From Catenuloplanes niger (GTDB lineage Bacteria > Actinomycetota > Actinomycetes > Mycobacteriales > Micromonosporaceae), in contig NZ_JAVDYC010000001.1 of NCBI RefSeq assembly GCF_031458255.1, forward strand, positions 4,783,001-4,847,000: 64,000 nucleotides of DNA, read 5' to 3'. Positions 3,486 to 53,271 of this stretch are shown piece by piece. The stretch's first letter is position 1. Every line of letters begins with the position of its first letter. A program made the position numbers and the translations under genes. Under the pieces are notes generated by a model. That model searched no databases and was not told the DNA's origin. It saw nothing but the letters and a program-made list of their open reading frames with translations.

Positions 3486-3513
3486 CTCAGGAACCGCTCC
3501 CGCGCGCCGATAC
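3486..3513 (+). promoter_or_regulatory. FliA-type promoter of the GGDEF-like gene
   Basis: CTCA (3486-3489), 16 bases, GCCGATAC (3506-3513). Same boxes and same spacing as upstream of flagellar and chemotaxis units in this window. It lies about 60 bases before the ATG at 3574 and its ribosome-binding site. Confidence 0.7.
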
Positions 3514-3573
3514 GGCGGGTATCAGGCGGCCCGGGCCGGTGGTCCGTGCCGTACGACAGGAGGTTTCGCCGTT

Positions 3574-4041
3574 ATGGACGCCCCGACCGGTGCCATCGAC
3601 CGCAGCGCGTGGGAGGAGGAGCTGGAGCGGCGGGTCACCGCCGCGTACCGAGGCCGGTACCCGCTGGTGATCGTGCTGCTCGACCTGGACCACTTCGCGG
3701 CCTACCAGGCGCAGCACGGACGGGAGGCCGCCGAGCAGCTGCTCCTGGACGCCGGTGAGGCCTGGCGTGCCCACGTACGCCCCGACGATCTGCTCGTCCG
3801 GTACGGGGAGGGACAGTTCGGCGTGATCCTCAGCCGGGTGCAGCTGCGCGCGGCGGAACGGATCATCGCGCGACTGCAGCAGGCCACGCCGGTCGCGCAG
3901 ACGTTCTCCGCGGGCGTGGCGCTGTGGAACGGCTCCGAGGACTGGCAGTCGCTCGTCGCGCGCGCGGTCGAGGCGCTGGAGGCGGCGAAGGACGGCGGCC
4001 GTAACCGGTGCGTGGTGCACGGCGCCTCCGCGCTGATCTGA
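3574..4041 (+). CDS. Single-domain GGDEF-like protein, probably catalytically inactive
   Basis: A 155-residue soluble protein made of one GGDEF-type fold. The metal-binding segment VLLDLDHFAAYQAQHG is well kept, but the active-site signature is RYGEGQFGV instead of R(G/A)GGDEF, so the second catalytic acidic positions are altered and cyclase activity is doubtful. There are no sensor or membrane segments. The start is fixed by AGGAGG 9 bases before the ATG. A FliA-type promoter lies upstream, so the protein is probably made with the flagella and may bind a nucleotide or partner rather than make c-di-GMP. Function is inferred from fold and context only. Confidence 0.7.
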   Translation: MDAPTGAIDRSAWEEELERRVTAAYRGRYPLVIVLLDLDHFAAYQAQHGREAAEQLLLDAGEAWRAHVRPDDLLVRYGEGQFGVILSRVQLRAAERIIARLQQATPVAQTFSAGVALWNGSEDWQSLVARAVEALEAAKDGGRNRCVVHGASALI

Positions 4042-4061
4042 GGGCCGGTTCCCGGAACGGC

Positions 4062-4748
4062 TCAGGCGGTCGGCAGCCGCACCGTGATCGCCGCGCCGGT
4101 CCGCGGGTCGAAGCCGATCGAGACCGCGCCGCCGTGGCGGTGCGCGATCGCCCGGGCGAGCAACATCCAGAGCGCCAGGCTGCGGGTACGGTCGCCGCCC
4201 GGCACCGGCAGCGAGGTCGCCAGGAAGTATTCGTCGGTGAGCGTCTCGGCCTGGGTGCTGCGGATCGTCACGGTCCAGTGGTCGCCGAAGCAGGCGCCGC
4301 GGATCTCGCCGCTGCCGTCCAGCGCCCGCTCGGTCATCGCGCCGGTGACCGCGTAGAACAGCTGGTGCAGCAGGCCGGCGTCGCCCGGGACGGCCGGCCC
4401 GGCCTCGACCGTGCCGCGCACCGCCGCGGTCGGCACCACACGCTCGACCTCCCGGCCGGCGTCGGCGACGACCGCCGCCAGCTCGACCGGTTCGGACTGC
4501 ACCGGCAGGTCGCCGGACTCGAGGCGAGACAGCAGCATCAGGTCCTCGACCAGCACCAGCATGCGTTCGGTGTTGCGCTGCACGACGGAGAGCGCGGTGG
4601 GCCGCTCGCCCTCCGGCAGCTCGACGCCGGAGAGCATCTCCGTGAACGCGGCGATGGAGGTCAGCGGCGTGCGCAACTCGTGCGAGACGACGGCGAGGAA
4701 CTGGGCCTTGAATGCATCCCGTGATTCGGGCTCCGGTGCGGTTTTCAC
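4062..4748 (-). CDS. Soluble sensor histidine kinase (HisKA, degenerate ATPase domain)
   Basis: A 228-residue cytoplasmic histidine kinase with no sensing or membrane domain. The H-box VVSHELRTPLTSIAAFTEML carries the phospho-acceptor at about His23. The following ATP-binding region is poorly conserved: the usual N box and the G-rich GTGLGL segment are not recognisable, only ALWMLLARAIAHRHGG at the expected place, so it may be a phosphotransfer or scaffold protein rather than an active kinase. GTG at 4748 has AGGA 6 bases upstream; an alternative GTG at 4832 would add residues encoded by an AT-rich, promoter-like stretch. It is divergent from the response regulator at 4936. Confidence 0.7.
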   Translation of the reverse strand: MKTAPEPESRDAFKAQFLAVVSHELRTPLTSIAAFTEMLSGVELPEGERPTALSVVQRNTERMLVLVEDLMLLSRLESGDLPVQSEPVELAAVVADAGREVERVVPTAAVRGTVEAGPAVPGDAGLLHQLFYAVTGAMTERALDGSGEIRGACFGDHWTVTIRSTQAETLTDEYFLATSLPVPGGDRTRSLALWMLLARAIAHRHGGAVSIGFDPRTGAAITVRLPTA

Positions 4749-4935
4749 GAGCGGTCCTGTTTCGGATGCGGGCGCAAGCAGTGACTTCCCACGATAAACT
4801 CTGACTGTTCGGTTTTTTGCTCCTAATATCACCTTATAGGCATCGTAACCGATTCATGCCATATGGGTATCCGGACGATGCTGCAGGGGGTGGGCTAATG
4901 CAGGGACCCATGTGTGCCCGGGCGGGGGCGATCCG

Positions 4936-5634
4936 GTGAGCAAGCTTCTGGTCGTCGAGGACGATCCGGACATCGCGCTGGCTCTGCGGATGCTTTTCGG
5001 TCGCGCCGGGTACGACATCTCACACGCCTCCGACGGCCGCAGCGGACTGCGCGAGGCCTACACGGAGAAGCCCGATCTGGTCGTCCTGGACGTGGGACTG
5101 CCGGAGATGGACGGCTGGCAGGTGCTGGAACGGCTGCGGGACGTCTCGGACGTACCGGTGCTGGTGCTGACCGCGCACGGCCAGGAGGCCGAGAAGGTGC
5201 GCGGCCTGCGCGGCGGCGCCGACGACTACCTCACCAAGCCGTTCGCGAACGCGGAACTGCTGGCCCGGGTCGAGGCGCTGCTGCGCCGCTCGTCGGCCGG
5301 CCAGAACAGCTGGGCCAGCCAGGTCTACGACGACGGCGTCGTGCACCTGGACCCCACCCGGCGCCGCGTCTACGTCAAGGGCGAGGAGGTCCGGCTCACG
5401 CCGACCGAGTTCCGGCTGCTGAACGCGCTCGTCCGGCACGCCGGGGCGGTCCTCAGCCCGAACCAGCTGCTGACCCAGGCGTGGGACGACCCGACCGGCA
5501 TCGGCCAGGAGCGGGTGAAGTTCGCCGTGCTGCGACTGCGCCGCAAGCTGGGCTGGTCCGACCCCGAAGAGTCGCCCATCGAATCGGTACGAGGTTTCGG
5601 CTACCGGTACCGGAAGGCCAACCCCGATGCCTGA
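4936..5634 (+). CDS. OmpR/PhoB-family response regulator
   Basis: A 232-residue two-domain regulator. The N-terminal receiver (about 1-120) has the acidic pair Asp9-Asp10, the phospho-acceptor Asp52 in VVLDVGLPEMDGW and the lysine in LTKPFANAELLARV. The C-terminal winged helix (about 135-230) shows VRLTPTEFRLLNAL and ESVRGFGYRYRKA, typical of OmpR-type DNA binding. GTG at 4936 begins the canonical SKLLVVEDD; upstream GGCGGGGGCG can serve as ribosome-binding site. It precedes cheA by 61 bp, but a separate promoter lies in that gap, so it may not belong to the chemotaxis pathway. Its partner could be the divergent kinase at 4062-4748. Confidence 0.85.
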   Translation: MSKLLVVEDDPDIALALRMLFGRAGYDISHASDGRSGLREAYTEKPDLVVLDVGLPEMDGWQVLERLRDVSDVPVLVLTAHGQEAEKVRGLRGGADDYLTKPFANAELLARVEALLRRSSAGQNSWASQVYDDGVVHLDPTRRRVYVKGEEVRLTPTEFRLLNALVRHAGAVLSPNQLLTQAWDDPTGIGQERVKFAVLRLRRKLGWSDPEESPIESVRGFGYRYRKANPDA

Positions 5635-5637
5635 TTC

Positions 5638-5665
5638 CTCAAGTACGTCCTTTTTCGGTCGATAG
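5638..5665 (+). promoter_or_regulatory. FliA-type promoter of cheA-cheW
   Basis: CTCA (5638-5641), 16 bases, GTCGATAG (5658-5665), between the response regulator gene and cheA. It is followed by GGAGCAGGAGGGA and the GTG of cheA at 5696. Confidence 0.75.
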
Positions 5666-5695: not shown

Positions 5696-8113
5696 GTGGA
5701 AGAGCTTGGCGAGATCGTCGGCGAGTTCCTGATGGAGAGCCACGAGAACCTGGACCAACTGGACCGGGACCTCGTGTCGCTGGAGCAGGACCCCGGATCG
5801 CGTGACCTGATCTCACGCATCTTTCGGACGATCCACACAATCAAGGGCACCAGCGGGTTCCTCGCGTTCTCCCGGCTGGAGACCCTGACCCACGCCGGTG
5901 AGTCGCTGCTGTCGCGGCTGCGCGACGGCGTGCAGCCGGTGACCGCGGAGACCATCACCGCGCTGCTCGCGATGCTGGACGGCGTCCGTGCGCTGCTGGC
6001 CACGATCGAGGAGACCGGCGCCGAGGGCGACGTCGACGTGGACGGCATCATCGCCACCGTCAACGCGCAGATGGCCGAGCCGGGCGCCGCTCCCGCCGCC
6101 GCGAAGCCGGCCGCGGAGAAGCCCGCCGCGGCCGAGGAGGCCCCGGCCGAGGCCGAGGACAAGGCGCCCAAGGCGCCGGCCGGCGTGCCGTCCGCGTTCG
6201 AGGACGAGGCCGCGGCCGACGACGCCGGTGAGCAGCGCCCCACGCCCGAGCCGATCGAGGAGCAGCGCAAGCCGATCGGCGAGCAGCTGGTCGAGTCCGG
6301 CGCCGCCTCCACGGCCGACGTCGCCTCCGCACTGCAGCAGCAGATCGAGGGCGACGAGCGCAAGCTCGGCACGATCCTGCTCGACGAGGGCAAGGCCGCC
6401 CCGGCCGCGGTGAGTGACGCGGTGCAGAACCAGGCGCCGAAGCGCAGCGTCGCGGACAGCGCGATCCGCGTCGACGTCGACCTGCTCGACGGCCTGATGA
6501 ACCTGGTCGGTGAGCTGGTGCTCGCCCGCAACCAGCTGGTCCGCGGCGTGGCCGAGATGGGCGACCAGGCGATGGTGCGCAGCGCCCAGCGGCTCAACCT
6601 GATCACCAGTGAGCTGCAAGAGGGCATCATGAAGACCCGCATGCAGCCGATCGACCACATCTGGTCGAAGCTGCCGCGAGTCGTCCGGGACCTCTCCAAG
6701 GCGCTGGACAAGCAGATCAACCTGGTCATGGAGGGCAAGGAGACCGAGCTCGACCGCACGCTGCTGGAGGCGGTCAAGGACCCGCTGACCCACCTGGTGC
6801 GCAACGCGGTCGACCACGGCATCGAGGACGTGCCGACCCGCATCGCGTCCGGCAAGGGCCCGGAGGGCACGCTCACGCTGCGCGCGTTCCACGAGGGCGG
6901 GCACGTGACGGTCGAGGTCGCCGACGACGGCGCCGGCCTCAACGTGGAGCGGATCGCGAAGAAGGCCGTGGAGAACGGCCTCGCCAAGCCGGAGCAGATC
7001 GCGACCATGGACCGGCGCGAGATCATGTCGATGGTCTTCCAGCCCGGGTTCTCCACCGCCGCGAAGGTCACCAACGTCTCCGGCCGCGGCGTCGGCATGG
7101 ACGTGGTGAAGACCAACATCGAGCGCGTCGGCGGCGCGGTCGGCGTCGACTCCGTGCCGGGCAAGGGCACCACCTGGCGCCTGACCATCCCGCTGACCCT
7201 GGCGATCATCCAGGCGCTGACCATCGACTGCGCCGACCAGCGGTACGTGGTGCCGCAGGCCTCGGTGCTGGAGCTGGTCTTCATCGACGGCAACTCGACG
7301 AAGATCGAGTACGCGTCCGGCGCCCCGGTCTACCGGCTGCGCGGCCGGCTGCTCCCGTTGGTCCGCCTGGACCGCACGCTCGGCCTGCCGGTCGGCGGCG
7401 ACCAGGGCGTCTACATCGTGGTGCTGCAGGCCGACGGCCGCAGCTTCGGCCTGGTCGTGGACCGCGTCCTGAACACCGAGGAGGTCGTGGTCAAGGCGCT
7501 CAACTCGCGGTTCAAGGACGTCGGCCTCTACGCCGGCGCCACGATCCTCGGCCACGGCAAGGTCGGCCTGATCCTGGACGTCGCGTCGCTGGCCCGCCGG
7601 TCGAACCTGGCGACCAGCTCGGAGCGCGACTCCAGCATCAGCGCGCGGGACAGCCGCGGGCCGAGCGACAACGCGGAGCGCCTGCTGGTCACCGCGGTCG
7701 GCGAGCGCCGGGTGGCGATCCCGCTGGACACGGTCACCCGCCTGGAGGAGTTCCCGATCGCGAAGATCGAGCACGCCGGCAGCCGGGAGGTCGTGCAGTA
7801 CCGCGGCCAGATCCTGCCGCTGGTCCGGCTGTCGTACCTGCTCGGTGCGATGCCGGAGGAGACCGGCGAGACGGTCTCCGTGGTGGTCTACAGCGAGGGC
7901 GAGCGCAGTGTCGCGCTGGTCGTCGACAAGATCGTGGACATCGTGGAGGACGCGATGACCGCCCGCCGGAACGTCGACGACGACGGCCTGGTCGGCACCG
8001 CGGTCATCCAGCAGCGGGTCACCGAGCTGCTCGACGTCCGCCGTGCGATCGTCGCGGCCGACCCGAACTTCTACAGCGACCTGCACGAGGACGAGATGCT
8101 GGTGGAGGCCTGA
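5696..8113 (+). CDS. cheA: Chemotaxis histidine kinase CheA with two CheW domains
   Basis: Central chemotaxis kinase that autophosphorylates under receptor control and feeds CheY and CheB. 805 residues. Order: Hpt domain (about 1-105; His47 in RTIHTIKGTSGF), an Ala/Pro/Glu-rich linker with a small helical module (about 195-245, IGEQLVESGAAS and LGTILLDEGKAA) resembling MshEN-type domains, dimerisation domain, ATPase domain (about 345-500; LVRNAVDHGIE, VADDGAGLN, GRGVGMDVV), then two successive CheW-like domains (about 500-640 and 655-795). No classical CheY-binding P2 domain is recognisable. The GTG start has GCAGGAGGGA upstream. The stop is 1 base before the cheW ATG. Confidence 0.95.
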   Translation: MEELGEIVGEFLMESHENLDQLDRDLVSLEQDPGSRDLISRIFRTIHTIKGTSGFLAFSRLETLTHAGESLLSRLRDGVQPVTAETITALLAMLDGVRALLATIEETGAEGDVDVDGIIATVNAQMAEPGAAPAAAKPAAEKPAAAEEAPAEAEDKAPKAPAGVPSAFEDEAAADDAGEQRPTPEPIEEQRKPIGEQLVESGAASTADVASALQQQIEGDERKLGTILLDEGKAAPAAVSDAVQNQAPKRSVADSAIRVDVDLLDGLMNLVGELVLARNQLVRGVAEMGDQAMVRSAQRLNLITSELQEGIMKTRMQPIDHIWSKLPRVVRDLSKALDKQINLVMEGKETELDRTLLEAVKDPLTHLVRNAVDHGIEDVPTRIASGKGPEGTLTLRAFHEGGHVTVEVADDGAGLNVERIAKKAVENGLAKPEQIATMDRREIMSMVFQPGFSTAAKVTNVSGRGVGMDVVKTNIERVGGAVGVDSVPGKGTTWRLTIPLTLAIIQALTIDCADQRYVVPQASVLELVFIDGNSTKIEYASGAPVYRLRGRLLPLVRLDRTLGLPVGGDQGVYIVVLQADGRSFGLVVDRVLNTEEVVVKALNSRFKDVGLYAGATILGHGKVGLILDVASLARRSNLATSSERDSSISARDSRGPSDNAERLLVTAVGERRVAIPLDTVTRLEEFPIAKIEHAGSREVVQYRGQILPLVRLSYLLGAMPEETGETVSVVVYSEGERSVALVVDKIVDIVEDAMTARRNVDDDGLVGTAVIQQRVTELLDVRRAIVAADPNFYSDLHEDEMLVEA

Positions 8114-8656: not shown

Positions 8657-9532
8657 GTGTACAGCCTTGTCAGTGCGCCCGTGCTCGGCTTCGACCTGAC
8701 CCGGTTGGCGGGCGGGTCCGCCACCGCCGAGGTGCTGCTGCGGGCGTTGCGGCTGAGCCGGGAGGACCTGCCGGTGCTGGCCGGCACGCTGCCGAGCGAG
8801 GAGATCCGGGCGCCGCTCTGGCTCGAGGTGGAGAGCGCGGCGCGCCAGGTGCCGACGCTGCGCGGGCTGTCCGACATGGCCGACTCCGCGGCCGCGCTCA
8901 CCATGGTCGAGCGCGCCCCGATCGGCAGCGTCGACTCGCTGCTCACCTGCGTGCGCTACGACGTGATGTCCTGGACGTGGGTCGGCAAGGGGCGCGGCGC
9001 CCGCCAGGACGAGGTCGCGGAGAAGGCGACCGCACTGCTCTGTGACGCGGTGGTCGCGTCGTACCTGCGCGAGGTCCTGGACGACTCCGTGCGCCGCCGG
9101 CTCGGCGCGGGCTGGGTGGCCGCGGTCCGCCGGTTACCCGGTGGCCCACCGGTGGACCTGGGCCCGCACCACTACGTGGTCTCCTCGCTGCTGGAACGGC
9201 TGCGCTCGCTGACCGGGGCGGACGTGGAACGGCTGATCCGCTCCGGCGAGGACGCGCGGGTGAACTCCGGCGGCTGGTCCCCGGCCGTGCACTCGGCGTC
9301 CTGGGCGGCGTACCTGTCCGACCGGATCCGCACGGCCGCGGCCGCCCAGCTGCTGCTCGTGCAGGCGATCGACACGTCCGCGGTGCCGATGTCCGCGCGG
9401 GCCGGCGGCGTCTGGAACATGCTCAGCGGCGCGGTCCAGGCACTGGTGGTCCGCGACCTGCTGGACACCGGCACCGCACACCGGCTGTTGAGCCCGGTCG
9501 TAGCCGCTTTGGGACCGGCATGGCTGTCCTGA
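8657..9532 (+). CDS. Conserved-looking hypothetical protein between cheW and cheB
   Basis: A 291-residue, mostly helical protein that I do not recognise. It has no signal peptide and no clear membrane segment. Recognisable stretches are the repeated tryptophan-rich SWTWVGKGRGARQDEV and GGWSPAVHSASWAAYL, and an arginine-rich middle (DDSVRRRLGAGWV). Codon use is typical of the neighbours. The GTG at 8657 has no strong ribosome-binding site and no FliA-type motif is visible upstream. Position between the cheA-cheW terminator and the cheB promoter suggests, but does not prove, a link to chemotaxis. Confidence 0.65.
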   Translation: MYSLVSAPVLGFDLTRLAGGSATAEVLLRALRLSREDLPVLAGTLPSEEIRAPLWLEVESAARQVPTLRGLSDMADSAAALTMVERAPIGSVDSLLTCVRYDVMSWTWVGKGRGARQDEVAEKATALLCDAVVASYLREVLDDSVRRRLGAGWVAAVRRLPGGPPVDLGPHHYVVSSLLERLRSLTGADVERLIRSGEDARVNSGGWSPAVHSASWAAYLSDRIRTAAAAQLLLVQAIDTSAVPMSARAGGVWNMLSGAVQALVVRDLLDTGTAHRLLSPVVAALGPAWLS

Positions 9533-9558: not shown

Positions 9559-9586
9559 CTCAATTCGGTCGCGGTGGGGTCGATTC
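9559..9586 (+). promoter_or_regulatory. FliA-type promoter of the cheB-cheR-cheY-cheX unit
   Basis: CTCA (9559-9562), 16 bases, GTCGATTC (9579-9586). It lies 65 bases before the cheB GTG at 9651. Confidence 0.7.
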
Positions 9587-9650: not shown

Positions 9651-10811
9651 GTGACGATCGCAGTGATGGTGGTCGACGACTCAGTGGTCGTCCGCCGGCT
9701 GATCGTGGACGCGCTCGACGGCATGCCCGACATCAAGGTCGTCGGTACCGCCTCCAACGGCCGTCTGGCCCAGGCGAAGATCGACCAGCTGAAGCCGGAC
9801 GTCATCACGATGGACATCGAGATGCCGGAGATGAACGGCATCGAAGCGGTCCGGGAGCTGCGCAAACGGCACAAGACGCCGGTCATCATGTTCAGCACGC
9901 TCAGTGCCGCGGGCGCCACCGCGACGCTGGACGCGCTGGCCGCCGGCGCCACCGACTACGTCACCAAGCCGGCGAACGTGGGCAGCGTGCAGGCCTCCAT
10001 CCAGGCGGTACGCGACCAGCTGGTGCCGAAGATCCACGCGTTGGGCGGGCGCCGCGGCGGACCGCCGATGGCCGGCCGCCCACCGGCCCGCCCGATGGCC
10101 CCGACGGCCCCGGCCCGGCCCGGCGCGCCGATGATGGGCCGCCCGGGACTGCCGCCGCTGGCCGGTGGCCCCGCGCCGCACGGCGGACCGGGCGCGCCGA
10201 CCGGGCGGATCGACCTGATCGCGGTGGGCTGCTCGACCGGTGGCCCGGACGCGCTCGCCCGGGTGGTGCAGTCCTTTCCCGGAGACCTGCCGGTGCCGGT
10301 GGTGGTCACCCAGCACATGCCGCCGGTCTTCACGAAGATGTTCGCCGAACGGCTGGACCGCACGAACGCGATCCAGGTCGTCGAGGCCACGGACGGTATG
10401 ACACTCAAGCCGGGGGCGATGTACATCGCTCCCGGCGACCGCCACCTCGTCCTGGTCAAACGGGGGACCGGCGTGGTCACCCAGCTGTCCACCGCGCCGC
10501 CGGAGAACTCGTGCCGGCCCGCCGTGGACGTGATGTTCCGAGCGGTCGGCCGCGCCTACGGCGGCTCGACCCTCGCCGTGATCCTGACCGGCATGGGTCA
10601 GGACGGCCGCAATGGCTGCCAGGAACTCCGGGCGGCCGGCGCCGAGATCGTCGCGCAGGACGAGGCGACCTCGGTGGTGTGGGGAATGCCCGGCGCGGTC
10701 GTCACCGCGAACCTCGCCCACACCGTGCTGCCGCTGGACCAGATCGGCCCGTACCTGACCTCTCGTGTGAATGCCGGCCGCACGGCTCGGCCGAAGGTGG
10801 TGACTCGATGA
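9651..10811 (+). CDS. cheB: Chemotaxis methylesterase CheB
   Basis: Protein-glutamate methylesterase that removes methyl groups from chemoreceptors when phosphorylated by CheA. 386 residues: receiver domain (1-125; Asp9-Asp10, acceptor Asp55 in VITMDIEMPEMNG, lysine in YVTKPAN), a Gly/Pro/Arg-rich linker (about 130-185), and the catalytic domain (about 190-380) with the serine in AVGCSTGGPDAL, the histidine in TQHMPPVF and the aspartate in LTGMGQDG. GTG at 9651 follows GGGAGGCGAGGAA. It overlaps cheR by 4 bases (ATGA). Confidence 0.96.
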   Translation: MTIAVMVVDDSVVVRRLIVDALDGMPDIKVVGTASNGRLAQAKIDQLKPDVITMDIEMPEMNGIEAVRELRKRHKTPVIMFSTLSAAGATATLDALAAGATDYVTKPANVGSVQASIQAVRDQLVPKIHALGGRRGGPPMAGRPPARPMAPTAPARPGAPMMGRPGLPPLAGGPAPHGGPGAPTGRIDLIAVGCSTGGPDALARVVQSFPGDLPVPVVVTQHMPPVFTKMFAERLDRTNAIQVVEATDGMTLKPGAMYIAPGDRHLVLVKRGTGVVTQLSTAPPENSCRPAVDVMFRAVGRAYGGSTLAVILTGMGQDGRNGCQELRAAGAEIVAQDEATSVVWGMPGAVVTANLAHTVLPLDQIGPYLTSRVNAGRTARPKVVTR

Positions 10812-12891: not shown

Positions 12892-13377
12892 ATGTCTGAC
12901 ACTCTCGCAGTTCCCGCCTCTCTCGCGGTGCGCAACATGCTCGGGGACACCCTGGGCCGTGAGGTCACCGTCAATATCGGAAATCCGCTGACGCAGAAGG
13001 ATCTGCCCACCGCCACGGTGGCGATCTACGTCGACTCCAGCAACCGGGTGGCGGCCGTCCTCGGGATGGACCTGAAGCTCGCCGCGTTCGCCGGTGCCGC
13101 GCTGGGTCTGCTGCCGGTCGGCGGTGCGGAGGACGCCATCGACGACAAGGAGCTCTACCCGAACCTCGCGGAGAACGTCGGCGAGCTCTGCAACATCCTG
13201 ACCGGCCTGCTCAACAAGGAGGGCGCGCCGCACGTCAAACTCGACCGCGTCGTCCTCCCGGGCGAGTCGATCCCGAACGACGCACAGGCCCACCTGCTCG
13301 CACTCGGCCGCCGCATCGACCTGACGGTCGACATCCAGCGGTACGGCAGCGGCACGTTCTCACTCTCGCTGGCCTGA
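12892..13377 (+). CDS. CheC/CheX-like protein, second putative CheY phosphatase
   Basis: A 161-residue protein that follows the second cheY by 8 bases. Overall similarity to known families is weak by eye, but it has an E-x2-N motif, Glu98 and Asn101 in ENVGELCNILTGLLN, with a proline 22 residues on (VVLPGES), which matches the CheC/CheX phosphatase pattern. It may dephosphorylate one of the CheY proteins or bind the switch. It is the last gene of the unit; a hairpin follows. The assignment is inferred from motif and position. Confidence 0.6.
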   Translation: MSDTLAVPASLAVRNMLGDTLGREVTVNIGNPLTQKDLPTATVAIYVDSSNRVAAVLGMDLKLAAFAGAALGLLPVGGAEDAIDDKELYPNLAENVGELCNILTGLLNKEGAPHVKLDRVVLPGESIPNDAQAHLLALGRRIDLTVDIQRYGSGTFSLSLA

Positions 13378-13481: not shown

Positions 13482-13509
13482 CTGAGATCTCCCCGCAACC
13501 GGCCGATAA
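13482..13509 (+). promoter_or_regulatory. FliA-type promoter of the glycine-rich gene
   Basis: CTGA (13482-13485), 16 bases, GCCGATAA (13502-13509). The downstream box is a perfect match to the classical FliA/WhiG -10 element; the upstream box differs from CTCA by one base. Confidence 0.65.
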
Positions 13510-13555: not shown

Positions 13556-14167
13556 ATGGGTTCCATCAGCAGCGTCAGCGGTGGGGCGAACACCGCGTAC
13601 GCGAACAGCGGCCGCATCGAGCGCCGCGACCCGATGGCCACCGTCGCGAAGACGCTCGGCCTGGACAACAACACCCTCCGGGAGAAGATGAAGGAGGGGA
13701 ACTCGCTCGCCGACATCGCGGAGACCCAGGGCGTCGCGAACGATGACCTGATCGCCGCGATCAAGCAGGGCATGCCGGTCGACAAGGCCAACTCGCCGCA
13801 GGCCACCGAGCTGGCGGAGTCGCTGGCCAACGCGACGAACGCGGGTGCGCTGGCCGCGGCCGGCGGTGCGGGCGGCCCCGGTGGTCCCGGTGCCGGCGGT
13901 CCCGGCGGCGGGCACGGTGGCGGACCGGGCGGTGGCCACGGCGGCCAGCTCGGCGGGCCCGGGCTCAGCAGCCCACCGCGCGCGACCACGGAGTCGGAGT
14001 CGCTCAGCCGGATCAGCAACCTGCTGGAGATGTCCACCGACGAGGTCAGCCAGCAGGTGCACAGCGCCGCCGACCTGCTCAACCTGGCCAGCTCCAAGGG
14101 CGTCACCACCGAGCAGCTGACCTCGGTCCTGCAGCGCAGCGGCAGCCTGGTCGACGTCCGCGTCTGA
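13556..14167 (+). CDS. Hypothetical glycine-rich linker protein, likely in the flagellar regulon
   Basis: A 203-residue protein I do not recognise. The N-terminal part has a helical motif suggestive of a helix-turn-helix-like repeat (TLGLDNNTLREKMKEG, DIAETQGVANDDLIAAI); the middle (about 105-145) is nearly all Gly, Pro and His; the C-terminal part is another small helical module (ISNLLEMSTDEVSQQVHSAA and SSKGVTTEQLTSVL) of the same style. There is no signal peptide. GGAAGGAG lies 6 bases before the ATG. A FliA-type promoter and the adjoining che operon suggest a motility-linked role. A short hairpin ends the gene. Confidence 0.7.
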   Translation: MGSISSVSGGANTAYANSGRIERRDPMATVAKTLGLDNNTLREKMKEGNSLADIAETQGVANDDLIAAIKQGMPVDKANSPQATELAESLANATNAGALAAAGGAGGPGGPGAGGPGGGHGGGPGGGHGGQLGGPGLSSPPRATTESESLSRISNLLEMSTDEVSQQVHSAADLLNLASSKGVTTEQLTSVLQRSGSLVDVRV

Positions 14168-20663: not shown

Positions 20664-22357
20664 TAACGCCTCCGCTTTCGGGTGGACTTCTTCTCGGATT
20701 GGGTCAGACGCTGGCACAGCATGGCGGCCCACGCGTGCGGTGACGCGTCCTGGCCGTCGATCGTGAAGATCGGTACTTCCAGACCCAGCACGGTGGCCGG
20801 GTCCGCGGTCACGGCGGTGCCGTAGACCGCCACCGCGTCCACGTCACCCATGCCCTTCAGGTGGCGCAGCGTGTCCGCGGTCTTCCGGGTCGCGTCGACG
20901 GCCGCCCACACCTCGGTCGCGCCGATGGCGTCGCAGACGTCCCGGACCCACTCCTGGTTCGGCTCGTTCACCGGGGCGTCCAGCACCACCACGTACGGCG
21001 TGTCACCTCGGTGGATCTTGCGAGCCTTCTTCTCGGCCGCGCTCGGCCCGGAGATCTTCCGCGACGGGTGGATGCCGGTGCCGGCCGCGGACGGTCCGGC
21101 CAGCAGCAGCCGGGACGCGTCCAGCCGCAGCTGCTCGACCACCTTCCGGGCGACCGGCAGCGCGTGGCTCAGCTCGCCGGCCACCACCAGCACGTCACCG
21201 GCGCGCGCGGGCGGCTGCGGCCGGGGCGGCAGGTCGGCCAGCGCCTCCAGCACCCCGCCGTAGGCGTCCGGGCCGCTCGCCCGCTCCGCCATCGCGGCCG
21301 GCATGCCGAGCGCGATCAGCCGCTCGGCGATCGAGCTCCGCGTGACCTCGGCCACCGGCTCCGGCTCCGGCTGCGGCTGCGGCTGCGGCGCCAAGGCCGG
21401 TGCCGGGGCCGCTGCCGGGACCGGTGCCGCCTTCGGCACCGTGGGAGCCACGATCTCAGGAGCATGCACCGGTACGGCCGGGAGCGCCGGATGCACCGGG
21501 ACCAGGGCCGATCGTTCCGGGGGCGCCGGAGCGGCCGGAATGATCGGCACCTCGGGCGCCATCGTCGCTGTTGCCATCGGTGTACTCATCGGCGGCGGCG
21601 CCGGTGCCGGCTGGGAAACGCCGGGTGCCAACGGGTTGGTTTCCGCGATCAGCTGTTCCAGCAGCGCCGGGCTGACCATCGGGCCGCCCGGTGCCGGCGG
21701 CCCGTCCGGCGACGTCGCGGCCGGCGGACGGTACGGCCGGACCGTGGGCGCGGCCGGCTTGAGCGGCACGTCGATCGCGGGCGGATCGCGCGGTACGTCG
21801 ATCGCCGGCGCGGCGCCGCCGGACGGTGCGGACGGGGTGACTGCGGGATACCCGGCCGGTGCTCCGGCGGTGACCGCGCGCTCGGCCGGGGCGCGGGTCA
21901 GGTGCCCGCTCTCCAGCCCCGCCATGATCTCGGCGAACGCCGGGCTCGCGGTGGAGACCAGGCCGGCGCGTGCGGGCAGCTCACCGCCGCCGCCCTGGCC
22001 GTACGGGTTCCGGACCGGCGGCGGCTCCTTCGCGGGGGCCCGGGAGAAGCCGTCGTTGTCCGCGCGCTCCAGCAGCGCCGCCAGTGTGTCGGCTGGCTTC
22101 TCCCGGGGCGGCGCCTCCTGACCGCCACCGCCACCGCCCCCGCCAGTGCCACCGCCGCCACCGCCGTGCTTGCCGGCCATCACCTCGTCCGGGACCTCGA
22201 CGGACAGCTCGTACTTCTGTTTCGCGAAGAAGCCGCCGAACCCGCCGGTGCGCACCTTGTCCGCCGAGATGATGCGCACCGAGGTGCCGTACTCCCTGCG
22301 CACCTGCTCCAGCAGCGGCTCGATGGCCGGACCCTCAAGCAGCACCCGCGTAGGCAC
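20663..22357 (-). CDS. flhF: FlhF-like protein with degenerate GTPase domain
   Basis: FlhF is an SRP-type GTPase that sets flagellar number and place. This 564-residue protein keeps the FlhF N-terminal B domain (VRREYGTSVRIISADKVRTGGFGGFF) and a long Pro/Ala-rich linker (about 60-370), but the C-terminal SRP-GTPase fold lacks its motifs: where G1 should read GxTGxGKTT there is VVAGELSHALPVARKV, and the G3 DTAGR place reads VVLDAPVNEP. It probably cannot bind GTP in the usual way. GTG at 22357 overlaps flhA by 23 bases, the usual flhA-flhF order. Confidence 0.8.
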   Translation of the reverse strand: MPTRVLLEGPAIEPLLEQVRREYGTSVRIISADKVRTGGFGGFFAKQKYELSVEVPDEVMAGKHGGGGGGTGGGGGGGGQEAPPREKPADTLAALLERADNDGFSRAPAKEPPPVRNPYGQGGGGELPARAGLVSTASPAFAEIMAGLESGHLTRAPAERAVTAGAPAGYPAVTPSAPSGGAAPAIDVPRDPPAIDVPLKPAAPTVRPYRPPAATSPDGPPAPGGPMVSPALLEQLIAETNPLAPGVSQPAPAPPPMSTPMATATMAPEVPIIPAAPAPPERSALVPVHPALPAVPVHAPEIVAPTVPKAAPVPAAAPAPALAPQPQPQPEPEPVAEVTRSSIAERLIALGMPAAMAERASGPDAYGGVLEALADLPPRPQPPARAGDVLVVAGELSHALPVARKVVEQLRLDASRLLLAGPSAAGTGIHPSRKISGPSAAEKKARKIHRGDTPYVVVLDAPVNEPNQEWVRDVCDAIGATEVWAAVDATRKTADTLRHLKGMGDVDAVAVYGTAVTADPATVLGLEVPIFTIDGQDASPHAWAAMLCQRLTQSEKKSTRKRRR

Positions 22358-24386
22358 CGTTCACCACCCCCATCGTCTCGATCTGCGCGGTCGAACCGGC
22401 GATCTCCGAGTAGGACATGACCGCGGTCTTGCGCCCACCGGCCCGCAACAGCCGGTGCAGCGGCGGCCGCAGCTGCGGCGAGCAGGCCAGCACCGGGTTG
22501 GCGCCCTGCTGCTCCGCGGTCTCGGCGTGCATCCCGATCTGGTTCACCACGTTCTCCGCGAGCGCGGCGTCCAGCGCCAGGAACAGCCCGTTCTCGCTCG
22601 GCCGCAGCGACTCCAGCATCGCGTGCTCCAGCTGCGGGTCGAGCGTGATCACGGTCAGCGTGCCCGCGGTGGTGAACTGCTGCGCGATCGCCGGGCCGAG
22701 CGCCGCGCGGGCCGCCTCCACCAGGCCGTCGTGGTCGGTGGAGACCTTCGCGCGCAGCGACAGCGACTCGAAGATGCGCACCAGGTCGCGGATGGCGACG
22801 CCCTCCTCCAGCAGCGACTGCAGCACCCGCTGGATCTGGCCGAGGCTGAGCAGCGACGGCGTCAGCTCCTCGACCACCACCGGGTGGGTGCGCTTGACCG
22901 TCTCGACCAGCGCGCGCACGTCCTCGCGGCCGAGCAGCCGGCTCGCGTTCGTGCGGACCACCTCGGCCAGATGCGTGATGATCACCGAGGCCCGGTCGAC
23001 CACGGTCGCGCCGGCCAGCTCCGCCTGGTAGTGCAGCTCGGCCGGGACCCACTTGCCGGCCAGCCCGAACACCGGCTCGATGCCGGCCCGGCCGGGCAGC
23101 GCGGAGAGGCCGTCGCCGATCGCCAGCACGGTGCCCGGCGGTGCCTGGCCGCGGCCGGTCTCCACGCCGCTGATCCGGATCGCGTACCCGGAGAGCGGCA
23201 ATTCGAGATCATCGCGGGTACGGACCGGGGGCATCACCACGCCGAGCTCCAGCGCGATCTTGCGGCGCAGCGCGCGGACCCGGTCCAGCAGGTCACCGCC
23301 GGTCGGGTCGACCAGGTCCACCAGGTCGGGGGAGAGCGCCAGCTCCAGCGGGTCGACCCGCATCTCACCCATGATCGACTCGGTGGTGTCCGGGTTGACC
23401 GACGCGGCCGCGGAGCCCTCGGCCGCCTCGCCCGGCGCGGGCTCCTCCACCGGCGGCTTGAGCCGGGTGGACGCGAACAGCACCAGCCCGCCGACCACCA
23501 GGAACGGCAGCTTCGGCAGGCCCGGGATGACGCAGAGCGCCAGCGCGGCACCGCCGCCGATCTGCAGCGCCAGCTTGTGCTGACCGAGTTGCTTGGTGAC
23601 GCTGCTGCCCATGTCGCCCTCGGTGGCCGACCGGGTCACGATCAGACCGGTCGCCACGGACAGCAGCAGCGCCGGAATCTGCGAGACCAGGCCGTCACCC
23701 ACGCTGAGCAGGCTGTACGTCTGGATCGCCTCGGCCGGCGCCATGCCCTTCTGCAGCATGCCGACGCCGAAGCCGCCGATCAGGTTGATCAACGTGATGA
23801 TGATGGCCGCGATCGCGTCGCCCTTGACGAACTTCGAGGCGCCGTCCATCGCGCCGTAGAAGTCGGCCTCCGCGGAGACCTCCTGGCGCCGCTTCCGCGC
23901 CTCCGGCTCGTCGATCAGGCCCGCGTTCAGGTCCGCGTCGATCGCCATCTGCTTGCCGGGCATCGCGTCGAGCGTGAACCGGGCACCGACCTCGGCGACG
24001 CGTTCCGCACCCTTGGTCACCACGACCATCTGCACGATCACCAGGATGGTGAAGATGACCAGGCCGACGATGAGCGAGCCGCCGACCACGAAGTGACCGA
24101 ACGCCTCGATCACCTTGCCGGCGAAGCCGTCCATCAGCACCAGCCGGGTCGCGCTGATGTTCAGTGCCAGCCGGAACAGCGTGAAGATCAGCAGGAGTGC
24201 CGGGAAGATCGAGAACTCCAGCGGCTTCTGGACGAACATGCTGACCAGGACGATCAGCAGCGCACCGGTGATGTTCAGCGCGATGAGCAGGTCGAGGAGC
24301 ATCGTCGGCAGTGGCACCACCATCATCACGATGATCGCGATGACGCCGATCGGTACGGCCAGTTGGCCCATCAGCTTCGAGTTCAC
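22335..24386 (-). CDS. flhA: Flagellar export gate protein FlhA
   Basis: Largest export-gate protein; it couples the proton gradient to export and docks chaperone-substrate complexes. About 683 residues: eight membrane helices in the N-terminal half, the FHIPEP signature region (MPGKQMAIDADLNAGLIDEPEARKRR), and a cytoplasmic domain (about 330-683) with a normal layout. GTG at 24386 follows GGAAGG; another GTG at 24398 without ribosome-binding site would add four residues. A FliA-type promoter lies at 24463-24490, so the flhA-flhF unit can be transcribed separately from flhB. Confidence 0.95.
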   Translation of the reverse strand: MNSKLMGQLAVPIGVIAIIVMMVVPLPTMLLDLLIALNITGALLIVLVSMFVQKPLEFSIFPALLLIFTLFRLALNISATRLVLMDGFAGKVIEAFGHFVVGGSLIVGLVIFTILVIVQMVVVTKGAERVAEVGARFTLDAMPGKQMAIDADLNAGLIDEPEARKRRQEVSAEADFYGAMDGASKFVKGDAIAAIIITLINLIGGFGVGMLQKGMAPAEAIQTYSLLSVGDGLVSQIPALLLSVATGLIVTRSATEGDMGSSVTKQLGQHKLALQIGGGAALALCVIPGLPKLPFLVVGGLVLFASTRLKPPVEEPAPGEAAEGSAAASVNPDTTESIMGEMRVDPLELALSPDLVDLVDPTGGDLLDRVRALRRKIALELGVVMPPVRTRDDLELPLSGYAIRISGVETGRGQAPPGTVLAIGDGLSALPGRAGIEPVFGLAGKWVPAELHYQAELAGATVVDRASVIITHLAEVVRTNASRLLGREDVRALVETVKRTHPVVVEELTPSLLSLGQIQRVLQSLLEEGVAIRDLVRIFESLSLRAKVSTDHDGLVEAARAALGPAIAQQFTTAGTLTVITLDPQLEHAMLESLRPSENGLFLALDAALAENVVNQIGMHAETAEQQGANPVLACSPQLRPPLHRLLRAGGRKTAVMSYSEIAGSTAQIETMGVVNGAYAGAA

Positions 24387-24462: not shown

Positions 24463-24490
24463 CGATCGGCACCCCGGTGGGAGAGCTGAG
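24463..24490 (-). promoter_or_regulatory. FliA-type promoter of flhA-flhF
   Basis: On the minus strand CTCA (24487-24490), 16 bases, GCCGATCG (24463-24470), immediately after the flhB stop. It is followed 77 bases later by the GTG of flhA. Confidence 0.72.
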
Positions 24491-26927: not shown

Positions 26928-27182
26928 CCGGCGGCGGAGAGGGTGCGGGCCGCGGGCGGGGCGGGACCGCCGGCGCGGTGCGGGAAGTGAGCGGTGCGGG
27001 AATCGCGGGGGTTCGGTGAGTGGCCGGGACCGGCTCCGACGCGGCGGCCGGAGCGGAGCGCCGGCGGAGCCGGAGGCCTCCGCGCGGTTGGCCCGCGGGA
27101 GCGTGCGGGCCCGGACCACGCCGGGAGCGGGAAGATCGGTTTCCGGCTCTGAGGGGCTTGCCGGGTTTCCGCGACAAAAAAA

Positions 27183-27212
27183 CAGGGCCCGGGTGGGGGA
27201 ACCCGGGCCCTG
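27183..27212 (-). terminator. Strong terminator directly after the second fliQ copy
   Basis: 12-bp perfect stem (27183-27194 and 27201-27212) with a 6-base loop, followed on the minus strand by seven T residues. It begins 15 bases after the fliQ stop at 27228. This is one of the clearest intrinsic terminators in the window and would separate fliM-to-fliQ from fliQ-fliR-flhB. Confidence 0.9.
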
Positions 27213-27227
27213 CGGAGGAAGGACGTG

Positions 27228-29596: not shown

Positions 29597-30553
29597 TCAT
29601 TTGCGGGAGTCCTCCTTGGGCGAGGGCACGATCAGGCAGGCGAGGCGCGCTCCCTGGGTCCCGGGGACGGCGTGGGCGAAGACGGTGTCGTTGACCACGA
29701 CGGAGAGGGGGACGGTGACCGGGTGCCCGAGCGGCACCACGTCGCCGGGGCGCAGGTCGACGATGTCGTCCGTGCGCATGCGGATCGGTGCGAAACGCAC
29801 CGCCACGTCCAGCGGCGCGAGCGACAGGCCGGTGGTGAGGTTCGACTGCGCGCGCAGCAGGCTCATCCGCTCCTCCGGCGTCAGCTGCACGTCCTCGGTC
29901 GGCTTCTCCAGCACCGGCAGGATGCTCGCGAACGGGATGCAGATGCTGGCGATCGACTCCTCGGAGCCGACCCGGATCTCGAACGACGTGACCACCACGG
30001 CGTCACCGGGGGCGATCGTGCGGACGAACTGCGGGTTGTACTCGATCGCGCCGAGCTTCGGCTGGACCGTGACCATGGCCTCCAGGCCGTACGCGAGCTC
30101 GCCCAGCATCTTCTCGATCAGGCCGCGCAGCAGCGGCATCTCCAGATCGGTCAGCGGGCGTTCCGGCTGCGCGCCGCCGGGGCCGCCGAGCAGATGGTCG
30201 ATGCTGGCCATCGCGGTGCTGAGCGGCACCTCGAACAGGATCGAGCCGGTGAGCGGCTCCAGCGTGACCACGGCCAGCACGGTCGGGTTGTTCAGCTGGG
30301 TCTGGTACTCCTCGTAGGTGAGCTGCTCGATGGCGAGCAGGCCGACCTGGGAGACCGCCCGGAGCCGGGTGGTGAGCAGGGTCCCGCAGCTGCGCGCATA
30401 CGTCTCGAAGGACATCTGCAGGTTCCGCATGTGCTCGCGGGACAGCTTGATCGGGCGACGGAAGTCGTAGGGCTGCGGCCCCGTACCTCCGCCGCGACGC
30501 GACATGCGGCCCGATGCGACTTTGCCGGAGACCGCGGACGGCGACTTGGTCAC
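29597..30553 (-). CDS. fliM: Flagellar switch protein FliM
   Basis: C-ring protein that receives CheY-P. 318 residues: middle domain from [22 protein letters not shown] and [20 protein letters not shown], and a C-terminal SpoA domain ([22 protein letters not shown]). The N-terminal CheY-binding LSQxEIDALL motif of enteric FliM is not recognisable. If translation begins at the GTG at 30553, the message would be leaderless, because the FliA-type -10 box ends only 7 bases before; an internal ATG at 30505 (SRRGGG follows) is the alternative. Confidence 0.93.
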
Positions 30554-30560
30554 GCGGTTC

Positions 30561-30588
30561 CCATCGGCATCTTGAGAGCTTCACTGAG
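30561..30588 (-). promoter_or_regulatory. FliA-type promoter of fliM-to-fliQ
   Basis: On the minus strand CTCA (30585-30588), 16 bases, GCCGATGG (30561-30568). The upstream box overlaps the T tract of the fliL terminator, so one transcription unit ends exactly where the next begins. Confidence 0.75.
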
Positions 30589-33254: not shown

Positions 33255-33282
33255 TTTTCGACGCCGGCGCCGGTGAAGTGAG
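33255..33282 (-). promoter_or_regulatory. FliA-type promoter of flbD-motA-motB-fliL
   Basis: On the minus strand CTCA (33279-33282), 16 bases, GTCGAAAA (33255-33262), about 65 bases before the flbD GTG and after the flgE terminator. Confidence 0.7.
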
Positions 33283-33352
33283 CCATCACCCGGTAGCAGG
33301 CCGGTCGCAAGCTGTTGCGGGAACTGAGCGAAAAAGGGCTCCGAAAAAGCAA

Positions 33353-33384
33353 CCGGGGCGGGCCACTTTCGTGGCCCGCCCCGG
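33353..33384 (-). terminator. Terminator after flgE
   Basis: 14-bp perfect stem (33353-33366 and 33371-33384) with loop TTTC (plus-strand reading), 22 bases after the flgE stop; on the minus strand it is followed within a few bases by TTGCTTTTTCGG. It ends the long flgB-to-flgE operon. Confidence 0.88.
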
Positions 33385-33406
33385 CGGGTAAGACGCTTAT
33401 GCGTGA

Positions 33407-44126: not shown

Positions 44127-44154
44127 CCATCGGCCGGGGCGGCGCGGGCTTGAG
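44127..44154 (-). promoter_or_regulatory. FliA-type promoter of the flgB-to-flgE operon
   Basis: On the minus strand CTCA (44151-44154), 16 bases, GCCGATGG (44127-44134), about 80 bases before the flgB GTG. The rest of the 226-bp gap holds the terminator of the previous unit. Confidence 0.75.
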
Positions 44155-47339: not shown

Positions 47340-47367
47340 TATTCGGCGCGGGGGACTCGCTCTTGAG
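47340..47367 (-). promoter_or_regulatory. FliA-type promoter of fliC
   Basis: On the minus strand CTCA (47364-47367), 16 bases, GCCGAATA (47340-47347). Predicted start of the message is near 47333, giving a leader of about 55 bases. Confidence 0.8.
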
Positions 47368-47466
47368 ATTTCGCGAGACTTTTTCTGGCTTGCGGCCGGC
47401 GATTCCGTGCGGAGGCCGGCGGTGCCGCCGACCGACGAATCGGCGGCGCGGCGCGGCGCCTGAGGG

Positions 47467-48342
47467 TCAGGCCGCTATCGCGATCGGCACCCCGTGGTGA
47501 TCGGTGAACGCGAGCCGGGTGTGCAGGTTCCCGAGCGAGCCCACCTCCTGGTAGTAGGAGGCCCGCCGGCGTGCCACGCACCCGTCCTTCCTGTCCTTGC
47601 GGTCGATCAGGTCCGGGTCCAGGTGCGTGTTGAGTCCTTCGCGCAGCAGCGTCAGTGCCTCCGCGCGCAGCTGCGAGACGCGGGACTCGGTCACGCCGAG
47701 CTCGGCCGCGATCGTGGCCATCGGCCGTTCCTGCATGAAGTAGCCGTTGACCACGGTGCGCAGCCGGTCCGGCAGGGCCTCGATCGCGTTGTGCAGGTAA
47801 CCGATCTTCTCCCGGTGCAGCAGCAGGTCCTCCGGGCCGGCGGTGCGCTCGGTGACCATGTCCTCCGCGGCGCCGGTGGTGAAGCCCTGCAGGCTGAGCA
47901 CGACCGCGCGCTGCACGTCGTCCTCCACCTCCTTGAGCTCGTCCACCGCGATGCCGAGGAACGCGGCCAGCTCCTGCTGGGTCGGTGTCCGCCCGAGCGT
48001 GGCGGTCAGTTCCTGCCGGGCGGTGTCGGTCTTGCGGGCCCGGGATCGTACGGACCGGGACGCCCAGTCCAGATGGCGCAGCTCGTCGAGGAGCGCGCCG
48101 CGCACGCGGGTGGCGGCGAACCGCGCGAACGGGATGCCCCGCGACGGGTCGAAGCCACGCGCGGCCGTGACCAGCGCGGCGAGGCCGGCCGAGGTCAGGT
48201 CGTCGCGATTGACGTGCGAGGGCACCCGGCTCAGCATGTCGCGGACCAGGTGGCCGACGAGCGGGATGTGTTCCCGGATCAGATGCTCGTGCTCGTGGGC
48301 GGTGGCGACGTTCGCGGCGGTGGCCGCGGCGACGGCAGTCAT
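47467..48342 (-). CDS. fliA: RNA polymerase sigma factor, FliA/WhiG family
   Basis: 291-residue sigma factor. Region 2: IREHIPLVGHLVRDMLSRVP, DDLTSAGLAALVTAARGFDP and IPFARFAATRVRGALLDELR; region 3: TARQELTATLGRTPTQQELA; region 4: LPDRLRTVVNGYFMQERPMA and TESRVSQLRAEALTLLREG. FliA/WhiG-family sigma factors read promoters like those found at eleven places here. A tail of about 45 residues after region 4 (DRKDGCVARRRASYYQEVG) is unusual. No FlgM-type anti-sigma gene is visible next to it. ATG at 48342; divergent from flgN. Confidence 0.93.
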   Translation of the reverse strand: MTAVAAATAANVATAHEHEHLIREHIPLVGHLVRDMLSRVPSHVNRDDLTSAGLAALVTAARGFDPSRGIPFARFAATRVRGALLDELRHLDWASRSVRSRARKTDTARQELTATLGRTPTQQELAAFLGIAVDELKEVEDDVQRAVVLSLQGFTTGAAEDMVTERTAGPEDLLLHREKIGYLHNAIEALPDRLRTVVNGYFMQERPMATIAAELGVTESRVSQLRAEALTLLREGLNTHLDPDLIDRKDRKDGCVARRRASYYQEVGSLGNLHTRLAFTDHHGVPIAIAA

Positions 48343-48486
48343 GAGATTCCCCCTCAGGCGTAGGCCCGCGCTCGCGCGAGCTGTTCACCGTGAACAAGAG
48401 AAACTCTCTGTTACTCAGGGTGCTGTGTACGTGACTTACGGTTGCCATTTGGTTGCATCCGAGCCGGAATCCTCAGGTCGAAACCC

Positions 48487-48514
48487 CTCATGGGCGGCCC
48501 TGTGCTGCCGACGG
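48487..48514 (+). promoter_or_regulatory. FliA-type promoter of flgN-flgK-flgL-fliW-csrA
   Basis: CTCA (48487-48490), 16 bases, GCCGACGG (48507-48514), 44 bases before the flgN GTG. Confidence 0.7.
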
Positions 48515-48557
48515 GCAAGGACGAACAGGGGACATCGTCCGGCAGGCGGAGGCACGC

Positions 48558-52107: not shown

Positions 52108-52127
52108 ACACTCTGCGTGAACCGTCC

Positions 52128-52162
52128 GGAAGGGCCGGCCGCCACTCGGCGTCGGCCCTTCC
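52128..52162 (+). terminator. Terminator after csrA
   Basis: 10-bp stem (52128-52137 and 52153-52162) with an internal small hairpin, 20 bases after the csrA stop; ends the flgN-to-csrA operon. It also faces the end of the convergent peptidase gene. Confidence 0.7.
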
Positions 52163-52216
52163 GCCGTGTCCGGGCCCGGTGGCCGGGGCGTCGTCGACAC
52201 CCCGGCCACCCGGGCG

Positions 52217-53062
52217 TCACCGCACCGGGACGCCCTTCGCCTTCAGGAACAGGAACGGGTCGACCGCGTTCTCCACCGTCGCCGGGAAGGCGGTGTGCAC
52301 CTCGAAGTGCAGGTGCGGGCCGGTGGAGTGACCGGACGAGCCGACCTGCCCGATCAGGTCGCCCGCGGTCACGGTCTGGCCGGGCACCACGGACGGACGC
52401 CGGAGCAGGTGGCAGTAGCGAGTGGTGACGCCGTCCGCGTCGCGGATCTCCGCGAACCAGCCGCAACCGCTCACGGTCAGGCCGCCGTCGGTGTCACAGG
52501 TGCCGATCGAGACCTGGCAGAGCACGCGCATCACCACGCCGGAGTGCGCGGCCCGGACCGGGGTCTCCTTCGCGGCGGCCAGGTCCATGCCGTTGTGCGT
52601 GGGACGCTGCGGCGTCCGGAAGGCACTGTTCATCGCGGCCGACACCGGCAGCACCCACGCGGGACCGGCCGCGCCCTCGGTGCTACGGCTCGGGCTCGGC
52701 TTCGGCGGGTCGCAGACCGGCAGCTTCGTGGCCGGCCGCTTGATGTACGCGTCGGAGACGTAACCGCCGTCGGAGAGCCGGTCCCACAGGTCGGTGGTGC
52801 GTACCGTACCGGTGACCCGGTTGCCCTTGGCCTGGCAGACGATGCTGACCTTGGCGCCCTCCTGAAGCGTCCCGACCCGCTTGGCCGCGGTCTTGGCCGC
52901 CTTGCGGACGTTGAGCACGAGCCCGCCGGTGCTGACCGTGCCGGACACCGAGGAGGCTGCCTCCGCGGGGCTCGCGGTCACCGTCGCGAGGCCGCCGACC
53001 AGCAGACCGAGTCCGGCGATGGCCGCGGCCGAGGCGCGGCGCCGGATGCGTTTCGTGGGCAA
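52217..53062 (-). CDS. Secreted M23-family peptidase with N-terminal SH3-like region
   Basis: 281-residue exported peptidoglycan endopeptidase-type protein. A signal peptide (RASAAAIAGLGLLVGGLATV, ASPAEA) precedes an SH3-like part (about 40-110; VLNVRKAAKTAAKRVGTLQE) that may bind the wall, then the M23 domain with zinc ligands in THNGMDLAA and STGPHLHFEVHT. TTG at 53062 was chosen because GGAGGAG lies upstream and the signal peptide follows at once. It is not clearly part of the flagellar regulon. Confidence 0.85.
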   Translation of the reverse strand: MPTKRIRRRASAAAIAGLGLLVGGLATVTASPAEAASSVSGTVSTGGLVLNVRKAAKTAAKRVGTLQEGAKVSIVCQAKGNRVTGTVRTTDLWDRLSDGGYVSDAYIKRPATKLPVCDPPKPSPSRSTEGAAGPAWVLPVSAAMNSAFRTPQRPTHNGMDLAAAKETPVRAAHSGVVMRVLCQVSIGTCDTDGGLTVSGCGWFAEIRDADGVTTRYCHLLRRPSVVPGQTVTAGDLIGQVGSSGHSTGPHLHFEVHTAFPATVENAVDPFLFLKAKGVPVR

Positions 53063-53243
53063 GGCTTCTCCTCCCGCCCCGCCGGGCGGCGGGCACGGGA
53101 AGAAGGTTGCCGGGCGTGCCTTGCCGTCCCGGTGCCCGAGAAGTGCGGCCGGGTTGCGGCCGGCACGCACCCGTCCGGCACCACGGAACGACCCCGGTAA
53201 ATCGCCCTAACCCCCGTTTTCCCCGACGAAGGCGCTGGATTGG

Positions 53244-53271
53244 CTCATGACGGTTGCCACGCCGCCGATGT
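53244..53271 (+). promoter_or_regulatory. FliA-type promoter of the chemoreceptor gene
   Basis: CTCA (53244-53247), 16 bases, GCCGATGT (53264-53271), about 50 bases before the TTG start at 53323. Confidence 0.75.

Follow-up and report, generated by a model that had tools for sequence, protein, structure and literature searches.

Predicted FliA-type promoters with a CTCA-N16-GYCGA core in the flagellar and chemotaxis cluster of Catenuloplanes niger

Flagellar sigma factors of the sigma-28 (FliA) type read promoters with two boxes, the first of which, TAAA, is separated from the second by 15 nucleotides (N15). For Actinoplanes missouriensis, Jang et al. 2016 (J Bacteriol) are said to have derived the form CTCA(N15-17)GCCGAA from 11 mapped starts. 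According to the accessible text of PMC8325347, the sigma-28/FliA consensus is TAAA at -35 and GCCGATAA at -10, and in Actinoplanes both the flagellar and the pilus genes are under WhiG-like flagellar sigma factors. Joint induction of flagellar, pilus and methyl-accepting chemotaxis protein (MCP) genes in A. missouriensis is described in the accessible part of PMC11960193. Here a stretch of 64,000 nucleotides (nt) from Catenuloplanes niger, hereafter the window (C1:4783001-4847000, part of a 9.74 Mb genome), was analysed. By Pfam matches, a che operon running from cheA to a receiver protein occupies 5.7-12.9 kb, the flagellar genes (flhA to csrA) span 22.3-52.1 kb, and an MCP gene lies at 53.3 kb. 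The motif CTCA-N16-GYCGA (Y is C or T) recurs upstream of such genes on both strands. These sites are very probably sigma-28 (FliA-type) promoters.

The direct observations are the motif, its excess over chance, its positional conservation, its register, the content of the predicted regulon and the start-codon spacing; from these we infer binding and the start sites. Where the sites lie, how far they are conserved and which genes follow them give good support to a FliA regulon and bear out the promoter reading offered in a preliminary description of the window.

Excess, conservation and spread of the motif

Exact matches to CTCA-N16-GYCGA number 11 in the window, 3/11 of them with GTCGA, against a mean of 2.38 and a maximum of 8 in 300 dinucleotide shuffles. 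Other spacings gave no match at N15 or N18, one at N17 and three at N14, and the spacing controls gave five each at N5 and N20 and four each at N11 and N13. For 69 called genes, the 170 nt upstream of each were searched: the sense strand has 10 matches at N16 but lacks any at N15 or N17, and the antisense strand has 2. Shuffling these upstreams 500 times gave a mean of 0.13 and a maximum of 3. The excess of the motif and its strict N16 spacing before genes are confirmed as real in the window.

The first box, presented in the preliminary description as a different upstream box, turns out to be TAAA-N15 in the same register with A replaced by C at its second base. The commonest tetramer before GYCGA in the 170-nt upstreams is CTCA at N16 (10), and TCAA (5) and TCAG (3) at N15; CTCA-N16 read one base later gives TCAA- or TCAG-N15. 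TAAA-N15 itself precedes GYCGA once in the window and never within 170 nt upstream of called genes.

Conservation was followed in clusters fetched from 16 Micromonosporaceae, among them A. missouriensis 431. Before the first genes of units, at least 9/10 consensus letters are present in 89/128 upstreams of the relatives and 10/10 in 65/128, counts that leave out two rows for cheA, each with a score of 10, because the fetched piece ended within their upstream; before other cluster genes the figures are 45/483 and 11/483, with such truncated upstreams not filtered from the 483. Most, though not all, orthologous upstreams in the 16 relatives retain both boxes, and these persist while the spacers diverge. 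The extended form drawn from 94 sites is CTCA-N16-G(C/T)CGA(T/A)NNG, the base after GYCGA being A or T in 83% (G(C/T)CGA itself was fixed by the search). The A. missouriensis genome has sites at cheA, fliM, flbD, flgB, fliC and flgN, and several relatives have no clear site at cheB, flhA, flgB, fliC or the MCP gene. Spacing is N17 at flbD and fliC of A. missouriensis, which fits the N15-17 reportedly found there, and at fliM of C. japonicus, so strict N16 as a general law is rejected; the earlier rule of N16 only describes the window and not the family.

Genome-wide, the enrichment of the bare motif is slight (266 matches vs 201 for the reversed pattern), so that the motif is not specific by itself. 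Extended with (A/T)NNG, it occurs 59 times at N16, 25 at N17 and 12 at N15. Outside the window, where gene starts and intergenic status come from a simple gene caller, 27/50 N16 sites are intergenic and at most 200 nt from a called start, compared with 4/25 at N17 and 3/12 at N15 (Fisher p 0.0008 for N16 against N17 and N15 together). Behind these 27 sites lie five GGDEF genes, four MCP or Cache-HAMP genes, six PAS/histidine kinases and one PilB-like ATPase, making 16/27 (the genome share of such genes was not measured); the other 11 are mixed or unknown, and some outside sites may be chance. This predicted content agrees with known biology as far as the accessible text of PMC8325347 and PMC11960193 describes it.

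One relative, G001, has an orthologous site at 14/27, as judged from aligned offsets, with spacer identity averaging 11.3/16; the in-gene sites also kept there (6/17) have spacers 15.2/16 identical, as coding conservation alone would give. This comparison leaves out alignments elsewhere in the locus (L143, L148, L161, L201, L213) and the too-short L214. The extended pattern gave 383 sites vs 159 reversed in seven flagellated genomes, and 160 vs 111 in six relatives in which fliF was not found. Two further sites kept in G001 (L208 1524 and L221 1539, at genome positions 7504923 and 9606138; spacer identity 4/16 and 8/16) have no sense gene called downstream, and a strong hairpin follows the L208 site; a small or antisense RNA is possible at both.

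The called start follows GYCGA by 7-11 nt in 8 of the 27 outside genes and by at least 28 nt in 19; in G001 the figures are 5-11 nt in 7/20 and at least 26 nt in 13/20, the sites being partly orthologous and so not independent. Over both genomes the distance is thus either 5-11 nt or at least 26 nt, with none between, as predicted if the transcript begins 10-11 nt after GYCGA and is either leaderless or has a leader long enough for a ribosome site. The GTG start of fliM (29597..30553, minus strand; Pfam FliM), at 30553 in the window, follows GCCGA by exactly 10 nt here and in each of the 13 relatives that have the site; the other three of the 16 examined have no CTCA site before fliM. The implication is that fliM, and several other genes whose start follows the box by 10-11 nt, would have leaderless mRNAs, which revises the fliM start called by a simple gene finder.

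Individual sites along the cluster

The eleven N16 sites of the preliminary description were all found, ten with CTCA and one, at 13482, with CTGA; it had missed a perfect site at 47440 on the minus strand, and its minus-strand coordinates differ by 3 from those used here since the box end was taken differently. On the plus strand, a predicted promoter with GCCGA at 3486..3510 precedes a GGDEF gene (3574-4041) and is kept in G001 and G004, both fetched relatives with the gene. Predicted promoters with GTCGA precede cheA (5638..5662, plus; gene 5696-8113), where no site was found in G033, and cheB (9559..9583, plus; gene 9651-10811), where 10/10 letters are present in 3/3 Catenuloplanes with the gene and in G074 and the site is absent in seven genomes of the A. 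missouriensis genus. The site at 13482..13506 (plus; CTGA-N16-GCCGATAA), upstream of the gene at 13556-14167, has a weak first box and breaks the CTCA rule, with CTGA here and CTGG in 3/3 relatives with the gene. Three proteins in or beside the che operon (8657-9532, 12928-13377 and 13556-14167) have no Pfam or NCBIfam match; the first two are present in 13/16 fetched clusters and the third in 3/16, all Catenuloplanes. An OmpR-type response regulator (4912-5634) adjoins cheA; G001 and G004 have it with 99% identity, the seven members of the A. missouriensis genus with 87-89%.

Predicted promoters with GCCGA on the minus strand precede flhA (24466..24490; gene 22335-24386), for which several relatives lack a clear site, fliM (30564..30588) and the flgB-flgC-fliE-fliF unit (44130..44154). 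The flbD/swrD-motA-motB unit has a predicted promoter with GTCGA (33258..33282, minus), just before which stands a terminator-like site (33352-33385). Two minus-strand sites with GCCGA lie ahead of fliC: the proximal predicted promoter (47343..47367) occurs in 5/5 Catenuloplanes including the window, and the distal site (47440..47464), found in 4/5 counted in the same way, would be a second fliC promoter. The remaining two, both on the plus strand and with GCCGA, are predicted promoters of the flgN-flgK-flgL unit (48487..48511; next base C) and of the MCP gene at 53323-54885 (53244..53268), the latter present in 4/4 other Catenuloplanes and missing from the matches in three other genera. The flgN promoter (48487-48515) reads GCCGAC rather than GCCGAT/A in the window and in 13/14 relatives, a conserved deviation specific to this promoter.

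The fliQ gene is present twice (26370-26639 and 27228-27497, minus strand; 86/89 residues alike). A terminator-like hairpin (27182-27213) separates the copies, and repeated ACCG heptamers resembling a TcrA box lie upstream of each. Two copies are also found in G001, G002 and G004, and one copy in five clusters of other genera with fliQ. A FliA site before the second copy was not accepted on account of a core mismatch, the sequence being CTCA-N17-GCGGA in the window, G001 and G004, with GTCA in G002. The idea that the motif sets operon limits does not hold everywhere: fliA has no site, and the second fliQ has only this one-mismatch N17 candidate.

Sigma factors and rival readings

The candidate reader of these sites is encoded within the cluster by fliA (47467..48342, minus strand), whose product scores 190.8 bits with TIGR02479 against a cut-off of 189.6, has Pfam regions 2, 3 and 4 and thus belongs to the FliA/WhiG family. 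The preliminary description had named this protein as the likely reader; it is, however, encoded by one of three FliA-type sigma genes in the genome, so that the sites are not assigned to any single one of them. The other two (2.80 and 9.55 Mb) share 72 and 73% identity with it, and region 4.2 is near-identical in all three (ESR(V/I)SQLRAEAL). The sites may be read mainly by one of these two, or by all three at different stages, a possibility to which we grant somewhat less than an even chance. It gains from the seven fetched cluster stretches of the A. missouriensis genus, in which no fliA match was found and several promoters are kept, while the window fliA, lying between fliC and flgN and 95-98% conserved in four other Catenuloplanes, speaks for the cluster gene. 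Since the sigma gene tree gives the cluster fliA of Catenuloplanes no firm place (support 0.40), orthology to the named FliA1-3 is not claimed; four FliA-type sigma genes were found in A. missouriensis, against three named in the accessible text of published papers.

Autoregulation of fliA was rejected, as the 350 nt ahead of each of the three FliA-type genes hold no FliA-type site. A TcrA-like direct repeat (48439..48456, minus strand) upstream of fliA is a candidate input to the regulon. Its sequence, GCAACCAAATGGCAACCG, has one mismatch to the TcrA box GCA(A/C)CCG-n4-GCA(A/C)CCG given in the accessible part of PMC12691653 and is identical in 5/5 Catenuloplanes including the window; the box before fliA has one mismatch in G033, two in G011 and four in G105. 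Boxes with one or two mismatches also stand before other cluster genes such as flgB, and the two TcrA-like matches in the window compare with 0.6 expected, so that they are not rare by chance. As for a FlgM-gated hierarchy, flgM (PF04316) was not found in 5/5 Catenuloplanes, against 3/14 control genomes in which it was found; flgM was likewise not found in Kineococcus and three other flagellated Actinobacteria, as stated in the accessible text of PMC2587704.

That the motif is a by-product of GC-rich coding sequence or composition, with no promoter function, is hardly credible. The genome-wide counts of 266 and 201 do mean that most bare matches are probably chance, but for the cluster sites the shuffles, the spacing controls, the positional conservation with diverged spacers and the start-codon spacing argue strongly against it. 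A survey of fliC in Actinomycetota (66 actinobacterial upstreams from 80 loci, 14 non-actinobacterial ones being left out) bears on whether CTCA-N16 forms a promoter class of its own, with an architecture unlike that of TAAA-N15-GCCGATAA. CTCA-N16-GYCGA precedes fliC in 24/66 loci, and in 17/52 outside Micromonosporaceae (letter shuffles 0.12), while TAAA-N15 occurs in 1/66 and no other spacing between 12 and 20 gives more than 1. In addition, the residue after SQ(L/M/I/Q) in the region 4.2 helix is R in the actinobacterial FliA proteins whose helix was printed and H in the FliA of 6pmi, the sigma of 6pfv/6pfj and the Symbiobacterium protein L082 (we take 6pmi to be E. coli FliA, and 6pfv/6pfj to be WhiG sigma). 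Both contrasts would suit a separate class, but the register is the same, one substitution divides the two forms, and CTAA variants occur in Planosporangium, Cryobacterium and one Nocardioides, the latter two with R; we consider a separate class unlikely. The R in place of H as sole cause of CTCA also goes unsupported, since Cryobacterium L069 and Nocardioides L090 have R but CTAA before fliC. In eight fliC upstreams of Geodermatophilus, Blastococcus and Modestobacter (L027, L029, L032, L041, L042, L050, L048, L064) the second box is GCCGT, a variant of this lineage, and CTCAAG or GTCAAG stands before it.

Several points weigh against the sites being sigma-28 promoters. The bare motif is genome-wide only 1.3 times as frequent as its reversed control. 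Reversed controls of the extended pattern number 23 at N16, 2 at N17 and 4 at N15, which makes the reversed pattern an unsteady control, and intergenic status alone does not separate the spacings (33/50 at N16, 8/25 at N17, 11/12 at N15). G008, the one outlier among the six relatives in which fliF was not found, is enriched nonetheless (38 vs 13 reversed). A recognisable site is missing at flhA, flgB or fliC in some relatives, and 29/52 fliC upstreams outside Micromonosporaceae have not even a relaxed CT(C/A)A-N15..17 box. Finally, CT(C/A)A-N15..17-GYCGA is absent from the 350 nt ahead of all three FliA-type genes of this genome and present before 3/26 sigma genes of relatives.

If the sites are sigma-28 promoters, RNA polymerase with a FliA-family sigma would bind C-TCA(A/G) at about -36 to -32 and G(C/T)CGA(T/A) at about -16 to -10, and transcription would start about 10-11 nt after GYCGA. 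One promoter type would then serve every flagellar tier (export gate, switch, motor, rod and filament) and chemotaxis, as well as genes elsewhere for cyclic di-GMP (c-di-GMP) enzymes, MCPs, histidine kinases and a PilB-like ATPase. The level of sigma, perhaps set from outside through the TcrA-like site upstream of fliA, would turn on the motile-spore programme largely in one step. A broader proposal, on which we are evenly divided, is that flagellated Actinomycetota share a sigma-28 dialect, CTCA(A/G)-N15-GCCGA(T/A), set by an altered helix in sigma region 4; in this genus it would serve the entire motile-spore programme as a single tier, with no FlgM, and those of fliM and a pilB-like gene would be among a set of leaderless transcripts.

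Relation to known flagellar promoters

This kind of promoter is reportedly known already from the sister genus, and the points worth pursuing are how widely it occurs, which transcripts are leaderless and which genes make up the regulon. The sequence rule offers a way to list the genes of the motile-spore regulon in a genus that has been little studied; a literature search on Catenuloplanes, judged by titles, found no work that names the genus or deals with flagellar promoters. It also extends the form said to occur in Actinoplanes to fliC in other families of Actinomycetota, and it brings the control of FliA in the absence of FlgM closer to a test, a question raised in the accessible text of the Kineococcus genome paper (PMC2587704).

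Compared with the target promoters of Rubrobacter WhiG, as covered by the accessible text of PMC8325347, the sites of the window share the sigma family and the second box, but there the search used a TAAA first box and WhiG is under RsiG; the same text describes Actinoplanes as without RsiG. Relative to the sigma-28/FliA consensus, the second box matches and the first box stands in the same register, whereas TAAA itself is not found there: C takes its second base, the fourth base is loose and a C precedes it. A close likeness is to the promoters reported for A. missouriensis as CTCA(N15-17)GCCGAA. The window sites have CTCA, a spacing within 15-17 and GCCGA, or GTCGA in the three cases noted above, so that the two boxes, the family and the operons are the same, whereas the window has N16 only, with mostly T after GYCGA, and A. 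missouriensis has N17 at flbD and fliC.

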